Position numbers and translations under genes: made by a program. The notes beneath the pieces are model-generated. The model had not been told where the DNA came from. It was given only the letters and a program-made list of their open reading frames with translations, and did no database searches. Positions 1 to 58,036 of a stretch of DNA of 64,000 nucleotides are shown piece after piece. The DNA is from Norana najaformis (lineage: Eukaryota > Annelida > Clitellata > Crassiclitellata > Hormogastridae): positions 3,995,260 to 4,059,259 of the forward strand of contig OZ029920.1 in assembly GCA_964023275.1 (NCBI GenBank), written 5' to 3'. How positions within the stretch are numbered: position 1 is the stretch's first letter; every line of letters starts with the position of its first letter.

Positions 1-540
1 ACCTCAGTTTCTCGAGGGCATTTGGACCGTGGACGTCGATCTCATTCTTACTTTTTTTTGGCAGAGCCCGAAGCTGCACACGTATTTTTACCCTGCAGTT
101 TTATATATTGTTGTTCGAGAATTATCTTTAGTATGATAAGTTTAACGACATCTTGCGGCTGGCTGGGTCGTGAATAATAATAGCATTAATAGCCTTTCAA
201 AATGCCTATCAAAATTATTAATAACAATGCCAGTTCTCATATGTACTACTTAATATTATTAATTTATGCAAATCGAGATTCGTTGAGCCGCACATATTAT
301 AAATCTTTTTAAAGGACAAGACTCTCCTGAACGCCAAAATTATTAATAACGTTGGGGTTTGTTTAAACACCTTTAAACTGGTTTTACGTGACCCTATATA
401 AAAGCCTAATTCGTTTAACCGCCATTAGGTGGTGCGTCGCTCAATGTATTGCACGGTTAACGTTAACGGCCCGGGTAGCCATAATAATTTATTATAGAAT
501 CGAATGAAACGTTGTTTTAGGCGTTAGTATAATATCTAAG
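1..540. other. Intergenic, one promoter-like module (minus)
   Basis: No gene is seen. A minus-strand copy of the TATA/GGTGTCT module lies at 365-410: the complement of AAACACCTTTA, with TATATA about 29 nt upstream on the minus strand. A plus-strand copy of the GACATCTTGCGGC block is at about 145-160. Confidence 0.5.
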
Positions 541-554
541 AGTCTCTGGATTAA

Positions 555-800
555 TTGTGTATAAGACTACAGTTCTGCCTACCTCACTTTCTTCACTCTG
601 TACGGACTGCCAAGACTTGTCTCTGCTTAGCCAAGTCGTCTGAATGTCAAGATGTGACTTTTTCTCGTACAAGAACAGCTCTCGGTAGGCCTGCCTTTTC
701 TGTCGCTGGTCCAAGACTCTGGAACTTTCTTCCAGCAAATGCTCGTTCGGCAAAATCTTTTTCGGCCTTCACGTCTCAAAAGTCGCCTATTCCTGGACTC
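555..800 (+). pseudogene. CR1/L2-type LINE, reverse-transcriptase C-terminal remnant
   Basis: The frame beginning near 555 contains SVAGPRLWNFLPANARSAKS, the classic tail of CR1/L2 non-LTR retrotransposon polymerases (consensus SVxGPxLWNSLPxxxR). Only about 60 residues of the extreme C-terminus are present and no catalytic domain. It is a 5'-truncated dead insertion. Confidence 0.6.
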
Positions 801-840
801 ATTTCCATTGTAAGGCTGCTTAGCTTATGTATGGGGAGAT

Positions 841-1490
841 GAGGTAAGGTCGACGTCAACGGTCATGCCAACCACAAGCTGTTGCTAAACACACGCTATT
901 GATTTTCATTAACTTTCTGCATCTGTTTACTAAAGCTTTGGACTTCCGGAATAGGAAATAAAAATGTAAGATAAAAGCCTATTATGTCGTTGGTATGACA
1001 GTCAAAAGATCTCGTTATGCAAGCGATTTTAATAATATTCTACTCTGTTTTGACACCTCTGAGTCACTTTATCGCATTTATACACCTCTGTTTTGTGAAC
1101 AGTAAACACTAATTAAATAAGAACTTTAAAATTGCGCAGGTTGTCCAGGTAAATCGAAGACTCGCCGCTCATAAGATGACGTTCACAAAACGATTATAAA
1201 TCGAGCTGCATTTAGATACCTTTATATCGCTGTTCCAGATCCTATATAAAACTCATTAGCCCAATATACGGACCCATTTACAATAATTTACAGTAATATG
1301 TATACATGGAGAAATCGAGTTACACTATGTAAAAATGATACTGAAATTATATACGAAATATTTAAATTGATGAGGCCAAATTTAATTTCAATATCGATTA
1401 TACTTTCATTATACATGATATATCCTTAAAAGTACTAATTTTATTTTAATTTATTTGAAAATTTACAAATTTTATTGGTAAATTGTAATC
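841..1490. other. Intergenic with two minus-strand modules
   Basis: No coding signal. Degenerate minus-strand modules are at 1051-1090 (TGACACC) and 1214-1255 (AGATACC, with TATATAAA at the expected distance). The rest is AT-rich and unremarkable. Confidence 0.4.
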
Positions 1491-1500
1491 NNNNNNNNNN
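1491..1500. other. Assembly gap (10 N)
   Basis: Ten undetermined bases. The adjacent module at 1524 has lost its TATA region to this gap, so the real distance across it is unknown. Confidence 0.99.
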
Positions 1501-2387
1501 AACGATTGTAGAAGCGATTTAAAGGTGTCTAAGTGCAACCGTGTAGGGAAAGAAACTTCACTTAACGAAGTCTTGCGGTTCTCAGTACCACTCACGTCGA
1601 CCGATGTTTAGTTAATTTTTTATTTGCAATTACTGCCGTTCAGCGCTTCCACGAAGTTCATTTAAAACTTGTTGAAAATCCAATATATGTCTTTATCTCG
1701 TAGTTGGGATGGCGCCGACGTCAACTAACCCTACTTTCCATACATAAACTAAGCTTTCTCAGTATACAGATGCCGTTTAGACCCAATGGCTCTTAAAATA
1801 TACACTATTTACATTTTTTTGTATTCGTTCTAGTAGTTGTAGTAATAGTGGTATTAGTAATTTGGTAGAGGTAGCACCAGCAGCATAATCAGTAATAGCA
1901 GAGACTGTAATAATTATCTACTGTTTGGAGACATATCTTGACCTCCGGGATTTTTACGTCGATTAAATCTCATCGCAGGCGCAACACCAACGAGCGATTA
2001 AGCGAAAAAATATGAGGCATATATAGCTTCGGAAGAAGTGTGTTAAAGGTGTCTAAACTACCAGGTCCGTTCATGTCGAACTCACCTTCCATGATACTTA
2101 AACTTTATACAGCACTATGGTGACTGAACGAAACGAGGCATATGCAAATCAAATTAAAATTAAATCAGATTAAATCAAATTAATTCAAATTAAAACAAAT
2201 TTGAAGGACCATAGGCAGCAGCCGCATATTATCACAGACGTATTCGGAGTAACGTAACTTCATTCTATCCATTTTCATACGATTTCTTATTCGACATCGT
2301 AACGAACCGAATCTTTCTGGGCGGTTCACGTATACTTTACCTCAAAGGATCAACGATTGATTTCACTACCGACTTTAAGAAAATGAT
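1501..2387 (+). repeat. Module cluster: starts at 1524 and 2048
   Basis: Two plus-strand GGTGTCTAAG modules. The copy at 2048 has TATATA beginning exactly 28 nt before GGTGTCT and the upstream GCGAAAAAATATGAGGCA block. Degenerate GACATC/GTCGAC blocks follow each start. No gene seen. Confidence 0.55.
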
Positions 2388-2456
2388 ATATATATATATA
2401 TATATATATATATATATATATATATATATTATATATATATATATATATATATATAT
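2388..2456. repeat. (TA)n microsatellite
   Basis: About 70 bp of near-perfect TA dinucleotide with one interruption. It ends about 24 nt before a diverged module start (GGTTTCTAAGC, 2480), so expansion may have begun in that module's TATA box. Confidence 0.9.
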
Positions 2457-55560: not shown

Positions 55561-56140
55561 TATAACACAAGCACGGACGCACGAACACACACACACATAT
55601 ATATATATATACAGCCATAATATTTCGTAATACAATGGATTGTGTTATTGATTTATTGGGATGTATTTAGACACCTTTAAATCGCTTTCACCGACATTAT
55701 ATGTTGTTAGTTTCTGGTTATCTCGGCACTTGGAACCTGGTGTATATAAGTTGGGATCGACGTCATCGACCCTGGTTGTCACAAATAGTGTCGTTAAACA
55801 ATGAATTATACTGAATGCAAGCGAAGCACAAAACAACTGCTTGAATGGTCAATTGTGTCATTTCTTGTAATCTGTGAACCGGTGTTTCGTCAGATAATTG
55901 CCCCTATGATATCTTCGCCACCAAACGAAGAGATTCTCTCCTCTTCTGACACGCGGAGGTCGTTCAACGCTAGGCCACATGACCCAGTGTAAAACGTCAG
56001 ATATTTCCTGCTGACCTTTTTTCCTGACCAAAAAGTCCATCAGGTAATCGACTCGAATCGAATTAATCGGAAGATTACTCAAACGATTATTCGGTCGAAT
56101 ATTTGATTGTGCTTAATGGCGACTGAAGTGGTCTACTGCC
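55561..56140 (-). other. Minus module 55669; short repeats
   Basis: AGACACCTTTAAATCGC at 55669 with ATTATATG 26 nt on, the first module after the gene arm. A CA/TA tract lies at about 55588-55612. The remainder is unrecognised. Confidence 0.45.
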
Positions 56141-56142
56141 TT

Positions 56143-56206
56143 GGCTGGACCTGTACGGCCCAGAAGTAGACCTGAAGGGCTACGCGTGGGCCGTACAGGT
56201 CCAGCC
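56143..56206. repeat. 20-bp perfect hairpin with 24-nt loop
   Basis: GGCTGGACCTGTACGGCCCA (56143-56162) pairs perfectly with 56187-56206. GC-rich and isolated in AT-rich DNA. It could be a transposon end remnant or a small structured RNA. Confidence 0.85.
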
Positions 56207-56375
56207 AGCCAAGAGAGATTGACGGAGCGAGAGACAATTGAGCCGGAAGACAGGAAGGAAGACAAACCTTTCGGAGAACAGAAAATCAAATATACAATAA
56301 ATGTATTAATTAAAGACAAAGTCATCATCGACCAAGTACATCGGAACATTTACAGCTAAAAATCTACTGTTCCGG

Positions 56376-56452
56376 CTGTTTGTTTATTTGTTTGTTTATT
56401 TGTTTGTTTATTTATTTGTTTATTTGTTTGTTTATTTATTTGTTTGTTTGTA
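56376..56452. repeat. (TTTG/TTTA)n tract
   Basis: About 77 bp of alternating TTTG and TTTA tetranucleotides. Confidence 0.93.
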
Positions 56453-56579
56453 GTTAATAAAATAACATCATGTGTCGCATTCTTTTGACACATTTTCAAG
56501 TGCAACTTATTAAGAATTATGAAGTTCTCTTGGAAGCTTAATTCCATAGATGGCACCAGCAACACATGCCTATGTTCTT

Positions 56580-57125
56580 CGCTTGTGTTCATCATAATTC
56601 CCTAGATGGCGATACTCTGTAACTCTCCTAAAATCTTGTATAATATGATGGAAATTAAGCAGTTGCAATTCTATATATACACCCAGTATTTAACGAATTA
56701 ATAAAACTTTCATTAAAATAATACAGACATTCTTTAATAAGAACTTTAAATACTAAATGCAGTCCCTGAACTGTTGTCAACGGTGTTGTCTAACACTCAC
56801 TACTACAAATGTTATCAGGCATCGATTTTAGACACCTTTAAATAGCTCAAAATTCTGTTATACAATCCGCATTTTCTCTCACAGAGGATTTCACTGCGGG
56901 CGTTAACGTTCCTCGTTTGTGTTCATCAAAATTCACTAGTTGGCGAGACTCTCTAACTCGCATAAAATCTTACATTATATGCTGGAAATTAAGCAGTTGC
57001 GATTCTTTATGTATTTAAAGAAATAATAAAACTTTCTTTAAAATATCAAAGATTTGCTTTAATAGGAACATGAAATACTAAATGCATTCCTGAACTCTAG
57101 TCAACAACGTTTCTAGCACTCTTGT
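56580..57125 (+). repeat. Tandem duplication, ~330-bp period, with CTCF-like sites
   Basis: 56590-56800 and 56930-57125 share GGAAATTAAGCAGTTGC, AATAATAAAACTTTC-like and ACTAAATGCA words. Each begins with a CTCF-like core (minus strand ATCGCCATCTAGGG, 13 of 15 consensus positions; CTCGCCAACTAGTG, weaker). A minus module (56830) lies between the copies. Confidence 0.7.
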
Positions 57126-58036
57126 TTCATAACAGCCTCAAAGCAAAGGTTCGAAAACTTTATCTTTTCCTCATCTGGGAAAAGTTGTCTGATTGACACC
57201 ATTCCTCCTACATCTCTGGTGAAGGAGGGCTTTGATGTCAGGAGTCCAACCATTAGAACAATTATTTATTACCCACTGCATAATGGTTATTTCCATCTGT
57301 TTTGTTCGTCCTCAACATTAAAGTGATCGAGTGTGAGCACTGAAAAACCAGCAAACTAACTCAGGACGGGACCAGCAAACCCAAACCAGAACTGGAGACG
57401 ATGCAAAGGAATAGAAAAGTCTACCGTATCAAAAGCAACAGAAATGTCACGAAGATCTATTATTGTCACCCTACTCTTATTATTATCTTATCTGAACATC
57501 AAGGAGGGCGGATTCTGTGAATGAAACTTACGGTATGTAGACTGAAACATGGAACATCCCTTTTAAGGTGTCTCAGAGTAACCTAACATTCGTAGCGCTG
57601 CGTGTTTAGATGCGTCGTACACGGCTGCCAGTACAGTTCGCGTCTGCCGTAACTTGCCTTACGTGGATAAATTGTTAATTAATATGGTATTCCTCATATT
57701 TCACCATTTTAATTATTAAAAAAATATAAAAAGCGGCTATAGTGAGATAATGCATGGTCGACTTTAACCACAGCGTCAGCCACAAGATGTCCATAGAAAC
57801 TGAGTATTACTAATAACTGATAGCAAATGCCTACATTTATAGTTTCGACGCCTTTGATTCGCTTTTTCCACTTTATAAATGCCTCGCTTTTCTCAAATAT
57901 GAGCGTCAGATTAGACTACAAACGAAGGGTGACGCTAATTTTAACGGCCCTAGCAGGCATAAGTCGTTAAACGGTCGATTCTAATGATAATATAAGGTTA
58001 GGCTTAGATACCTGAAACTCACTTTTAGTCAGCGTT
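57126..58036. repeat. Last modules: 57567 plus, 57846 and 58006 minus
   Basis: These are the right-most recognisable module starts. 57780-57800 holds CAGCCACAAGATGTCC, a minus GACATC block. The 58006 copy's TATA box is continuous with the TA array that follows. Confidence 0.5.

Follow-up and report, generated by a model that had tools for sequence, protein, structure and literature searches.

The window analysed here, a 64-kb stretch of DNA from the annelid Norana najaformis (assembly GCA_964023275.1, contig OZ029920.1, positions 3,995,260 to 4,059,259), forms the evidence base of this study, and it contains two short repeated modules recovered with a single iterated profile. Module A, ~70 bp long, joins a TATA box to the motif GGTGTCT, and the second module, B, has the profile consensus GTGTTTAACGACATCTTGTGGCTGCCAGGGCCGTTGACGTCGACCTT. 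The profile gave 135 hits that cover 19% of bases 1-58044, with none past 58507. An earlier reading made from the sequence alone had proposed about 60 promoter-like modules on both strands, in close agreement with the 65 A cores found by the profile. The set and three representative units are as follows.

372..58013, both strands (41 plus, 24 minus): 65 A modules (AACGAAAATGAGG - TATATAA - GCGATTTAAAGGTGTCTAAG), from the profile and pattern matches
14109..14235, plus strand: typical A + B unit with GGTGTCT at 14157 (profile hit)
23446..23712, minus strand: two tandem A-B units with an A-A spacing of 157 (profile hits)
57745..58044, minus strand: two tandem A-B units with an A-A spacing of 162 (profile hits)

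Allowing up to one mismatch, we found GGTGTCTAAG 44 times when 2.65 matches were expected, a count reached in 0 of 100 shuffles. All 14 plus-strand sites named in the sequence-only reading are among these matches, as are five of its seven minus-strand sites (3467-3476, 29209-29218, 47173-47182, 48027-48036, and 55666-55675); the remaining two (371 and 46221) have two mismatches and a TATA box. The gapped pattern TATA-N22-26-GGTGTCTAA was found 37 times, some of the matches overlapping inside one TATATA run, against a chance mean of 0.01. The fixed spacing that had been claimed is borne out, as the 65 A copies have 136 TATA starts within 60 nt ahead of GGTGTCT and 66 of these fall at -29 to -26 (11, 18, 15, and 22 per position). 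The best TATATAA match has at least 6 of 7 letters in 42/65 copies, compared with 9/65 when a control stretch (+155 to +192) is scanned; among the 62 copies with at least 5 letters the leading positions are -28 (30 copies) and -29 (14), from a script that broke ties towards -28. The block reported to precede the TATA box is also present in the profile consensus, as AACGAAAATGAGG. Two pairs of A modules, 8335/8396 and 31338/31403, face each other with ~60 nt between cores.

Conservation of the blocks was assessed by masking: a block was set to N, the profile was rebuilt, and the hidden positions were scored in those copies with a match on each side of them. Core blocks scored 0.90 for GGTGTCTAA (53 copies), 0.84 for CGATTTAAA (49), and 0.74 for TATA (36); the A-run scored 0.66 (54), the spacer 0.52 (52), the next 9 nt 0.55 (50), and the tail 0.51 (38). 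Masking of AACGAAAATGAGG left 0 usable copies, and these values cover the remaining blocks. Four stretches of B gave 0.78, 0.73, 0.59, and 0.76. Changes in length occurred in 2/53 copies for the core, 9/52 for the spacer, and 24/38 for the tail. Part of the low spacer value may reflect CpG loss because the spacer consensus is CGTCGGA, yet its non-CpG positions are also conserved at only 0.46-0.66. Blocks thus stand well above the spacer in the comparison that the sequence-only reading had called for, and the uniform decay that it associated with an inert old repeat did not appear, which rules out one inert, uniformly decaying repeat. On the simplest reading, the lineages that replicated retained the blocks and the spacers drifted.

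A and B recur in a common register. B lies 95-165 nt upstream of A in 32/65 cases, compared with 3.9 expected at random places, and 30-70 nt downstream in 40/65, a count obtained without a control run; 17 A modules have B on both sides and 10 have it on neither. Same-strand B-B spacings cluster at 160-179 (16 pairs) and 300-339 (14 pairs), and A-A spacings peak at 140-179, including eight gaps of 142-172. The window therefore holds tandem repeats in the 150-450 bp range characteristic of retrozymes, with most copies lying outside long arrays. Several paralogue pairs align across ~190-510 bp, beginning at or near a module.

Some B copies belong to a larger element of ~111 bp, which consists of a B variant (B') and a half that matches the twister-P1 ribozyme family (RF03160). 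One copy, 25391-25460 on the minus strand, scored above the Rfam gathering threshold (67.8 compared with 67.2 bits, E 3e-13) and is a predicted ribozyme. Fourteen further twister-P1 matches fell below the threshold, 11 with E values of 2e-11 to 5e-5 and three weak ones with E values of 0.17 to 4.3. These 15 are part of 57 Rfam matches at E<=5, the rest being weak and mostly microRNA models on simple repeats; no other Rfam family in the window reached its gathering score, and hammerhead ribozymes (type I, as in retrozymes) were absent from the matches at gathering score and at E<=5. The twister-P1 matches are antisense to the A modules. With a single element as query we obtained 33 matches. Seventeen come within 3 nt of its 5' end and were treated as intact, the other 16 being excluded; we take this common 5' end to be the base beside which twister would cleave. 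The main copies, and two units that contain or border them, are listed below.

25345..25455, minus strand: B' + twister element, 111 bp, twister-P1 at 25391-25460 (Rfam, above gathering score); next comes a plus-strand A at 25510
45329..45441, plus strand: B' + twister element with 99% identity to 25345-25455 across 111 nt; twister-P1 match 45324-45393, minus-strand A at 45281
24823..24933, minus strand: B' + twister element adjoining A at 24990
39277..39388, minus strand: B' + twister element adjoining A at 39446
16488..16577, minus strand: B' + twister element adjoining A at 16632, with GTTAAC at both ends
40556..40667, minus strand: B' + twister element adjoining A at 40722
45175..45272, plus strand: B' + twister element, partly deleted, between minus-strand A modules at 45281 and 45118
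47093..47231, minus strand: typical A + B unit with GGTGTCT at 47182, twister copy 47262-47331 beyond it (profile hit, Rfam)
47267..47340, plus strand: twister part of an insertion flanked on both sides by TTAGTTACACGATT (printed alignment)
3267..3376, plus strand: B' + twister element flanked on both sides by TTTCTATACTAGTAGT, no A found past its 5' end
28741..29084, both strands: head-to-head B' + twister pair with degraded A cores between (read by eye)

Flanking target duplications of 14-16 nt were seen at two copies (47340 and 3376), and those of the other copies listed are short or lacking. The duplication at the 47340 copy was read as 14 nt in the printed alignment and as 7 by script, and the TTTCTATACTAGTAGT duplication of 3267..3376 partly resembles the element's tail, with a second copy following. 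Long target duplications spanning the TATA box were also considered and dropped, since the presumed copies differ. Older twister-like copies at 30675, 33065, and 49151 have a common but different 5' flank; the repeats that hold them are ~300-400 bp long, match each other, and are perhaps another twister-bearing element.

An A core (>=14/19 letters) in the same orientation lies within 110 nt past the 5' end of 10/17 intact twister copies, compared with 4.4% of random stretches, 2/17 in the opposite orientation, and 1/17 and 0/17 on the other side of the element, counts that are not independent events because the copies may have a common segmental history. In the 10 copies, the 5' end and GGTGTCT are 47, 54, 56, 57, 54, 54, 56, 84, 60, and 55 nt apart, and eight of them have their nearest TATA edge 24-31 nt from that end, the other two having it at 18-20 and 53-57 nt. 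For seven of the 10 (47267, 28990, and 8945 were excluded), identity averages 0.82 over the final 65 nt of the element and is 0.505 over the 46 nt that follow, where random identity is 0.478 with a 95th percentile of 0.549. The place of A relative to the twister and the blocks of A are retained, and the sequence between is not.

On the twister strand of B, a candidate stem-loop was drawn by hand on 82 of the 107 copies and five measures were compared with 500 shuffles. Paired cells made up 75.6% compared with 73.0% in shuffles, and no more than 44.9% paired when partners were slid; the count of cells changed on both sides was 38 compared with 22.2, and covariation was 0.234 compared with 0.193; 0/500 shuffles reached any of these three values, and the tool warns that related sequences may beat shuffles without structure.

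As these modules belong to a mobile, partly tandem repeat family that carries antisense twister sequences, they look more like a repeat's own control region than like sixty separate host genes. Of the two explanations offered in the sequence-only reading, the better fit is a repeat family that carried its own promoter as it spread, and the dense array of small, independently transcribed units with starts at GGTGTCT is unsupported. We put at roughly 50% the probability that this field is an old landscape built up from layers of mobile repeats, produced by a satellite-like, short interspersed nuclear element (SINE)-like retroposon family with A as its likely promoter. B, with its younger form B' + twister, would be a small retroposon on the strand opposite to that on which A was first read, with a 5' twister, a possible 3' stem-loop, and a GTTAAAC...(TAC)n-like tail. 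A would have the 5' end of one B on one side and the 3' tail of a second B on the other, which would account for the short ~162-bp tandem runs. Read on the retroposon strand, A may comprise CTTAGACACCTTTAAATCGC (18-20 bp, conserved), ~12 bp, TATA, and, in most copies, 24-31 nt leading to the twister 5' end. Transcription from A would be followed by trimming by the twister and by copying back through a reverse transcriptase acting in trans, in a retroposition of RTE type. Because the likely RNA, with its twister, possible stem-loop, and tail, lies on the opposite strand, GGTGTCT may be an upstream promoter element rather than a start site; transcription in the direction first assumed, towards GGTGTCT, is a possible alternative.

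A probably acts as the promoter of the element, and its geometry fits that of a small nuclear RNA (snRNA)-type promoter on the strand opposite to the first-assumed direction. Newt satellite 2 is driven by a promoter of this kind. Like such promoters, A has a conserved block at a fixed spacing from TATA and, on the minus strand, would present an 18-20 bp block, a fixed gap, TATA, and a putative start 24-31 nt further on; unlike host snRNA genes, it is present in 65 copies in 58 kb, and no snRNA gene in the window reached the Rfam gathering score. By way of background, passages in two papers describe type 3 promoters as a taxon-specific proximal sequence element (PSE) plus a TATA box (PMC9841428) and the human U6-1 PSE as 18 bp long (PMC9652321).

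Several observations weigh against this interpretation. First, no A core can be recognised beside 7/17 intact twister copies (3267, 40517, 28846, 5338, 4994, 49151, and 33065, with the start of A readable at 40517 and 4994 without a good core), and target duplications at A-adjacent copies are mostly short or absent. Second, homology in 13 printed paralogue pairs, judged by eye, falls mostly to the plus side of A, which is not the side of the supposed RNA. Third, a T-run terminator of the kind that would mark an RNA polymerase III (pol III) unit is not evident: TTTT occurs in at most 16/65 copies per 20-nt bin on the plus strand, and likewise on the minus strand outside A, against a background of 8.5. 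By textbook knowledge, the polarity of the TATA consensus is also slightly better on the plus strand. Fourth, the downstream register of B is partly favoured by the method because one profile spans both modules, and 65/107 B copies have no A at the expected place, nor a hidden A there (score 10.57 compared with 10.62 by chance). A is thus not part of every B, and the idea that every B is half of an A-B monomer is ruled out; an early impression of degraded A upstream of some B copies rested on a handful of them and was dropped. Finally, two stem-loop measures were no better than shuffled (both-side pairs 8 compared with 8.3, further pair types 24 compared with 23.0), RNAalifold predicted no structure on the same alignment, and single copies fold only slightly more stably than shuffles (mean z -0.7 and -0.37 on the two strands).

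Known systems share parts of this arrangement. Twister-bearing RTE retrotransposons and the twister-P1 family are matched by the full-length twister-P1 hits placed 5' in a short element, but the element is only ~111 bp long and all but one match score below the gathering threshold; RTE retrotransposons with truncated 5' twisters are mentioned as in preparation in a passage of PMC7761336. Metazoan non-LTR (long terminal repeat) retrozymes and newt satellite repeats, as described in a section of PMC7229834, likewise combine short tandem repetition with the motif of a self-cleaving ribozyme, which here is twister rather than hammerhead. No transfer RNA gene was found in the window and viral contigs gave no match to two patterns. 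An 18-mer search of prokaryote genomes returned four matches in bacterial records, which were taken as chance. Among the matches listed in a literature search by sequence stretches, each of which hit the 10-mer GGTGTCTAAG alone, none was related by title, and among those listed for twister, RTE, and SINE retrotransposons none describes this element by title.

Other explanations account for parts of these data. The units could be the 140-180 bp central repeats of Helentron-type elements, comparable to Cg_HINE and Pearl, and the blocks satellite boxes with no promoter function, which we consider unlikely. The ~162-bp periodicity in short runs speaks for this explanation, as do tetranucleotide microsatellites of ACGG, TCAG, and TCTG in the window (9143-9313, 6985-7036, and 24541-24609, respectively), presumably of the kind found in bivalve Pearl-type elements. 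In the parts of PMC7492417 that describe them, Pearl, BIV160, and Cg_HINE of bivalves resemble the present repeats in their ~160 bp unit, short dispersed runs, and occurrence in both orientations, and in oyster 160-180 bp monomers account for 51%, one group having segments of reduced variability. The same source describes Helentrons as lacking target duplications, whereas the present units bear signs of retroposition, namely a ribozyme at an unvarying 5' end and, in at least two copies, target duplications, and the ribozyme and retroposon-like tail set these repeats apart from the bivalve elements. It is less likely still that the twister retroposons favour one set insertion point close to the TATA box of A, which would then be a target and not part of the element, in the way that Ty3 and TRE5 elements insert near pol III start sites. 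Twisters up to 99% identical do keep the same distance to A modules with spacers that resemble one another no more than random DNA does, and GTTAAC stands at both ends of 16488-16577, at the start of A; but older B copies flank A on both sides in the same orientation, most A-adjacent copies have short or missing target duplications, and conversion of an older B could yield the same picture of young twisters adjoining old A modules. Least probable is that each A is a host promoter firing towards GGTGTCT in a dense field of small-RNA genes, such as PIWI-interacting RNA-like precursors: TATA starts 26-29 nt ahead of GGTGTCT, conserved blocks with unconserved spacers, and groups with different sequence downstream of A would suit it, but the fixed register of A with B and the twister retroposons, the ~190-510 bp paralogue pairs and the repetition of the downstream sequences themselves, and T-runs that are only weakly raised (15/65 and 16/65 in two bins, background 8.5) all speak against independent units, and the ~18-bp conserved block exceeds the usual length of an initiator.

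The window also contains features other than these modules. An inverted duplication, 41118-45063 / 51668-55565, is 82% identical across ~4 kb; Pfam, which was run on 8 of 35 long open reading frames (ORFs), identified a RING/B-box ORF and a kelch-repeat ORF in the 51668-55565 half, and the ORF list has similar ones in 41118-45063. An RNase H domain (Pfam) at 29980-30549 is probably a retrotransposon fragment. A short element at 15498-15889, which we take to be mariner-like, has 108-nt inverted ends that are 98% complementary, and degenerate interstitial AACCCT-type (TTAGGG) repeats lie at 61400-61534.

If A is the promoter of the retroposon, these would be twister small-RNA units with snRNA-like PSE-TATA promoters that start at the ribozyme 5' end, at a density of ~1 promoter per kb, a host promoter type having been captured or homed to, although we regard this fuller version as improbable. 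A short retroposon that lacks an internal pol III promoter must be transcribed by some other route, and most of the twister ribozymes in genomes still await an assigned role. A repeat in which a conserved promoter-like module keeps a fixed distance from the 5' end of a twister would open both questions to testing through the mapping of RNA 5' ends.

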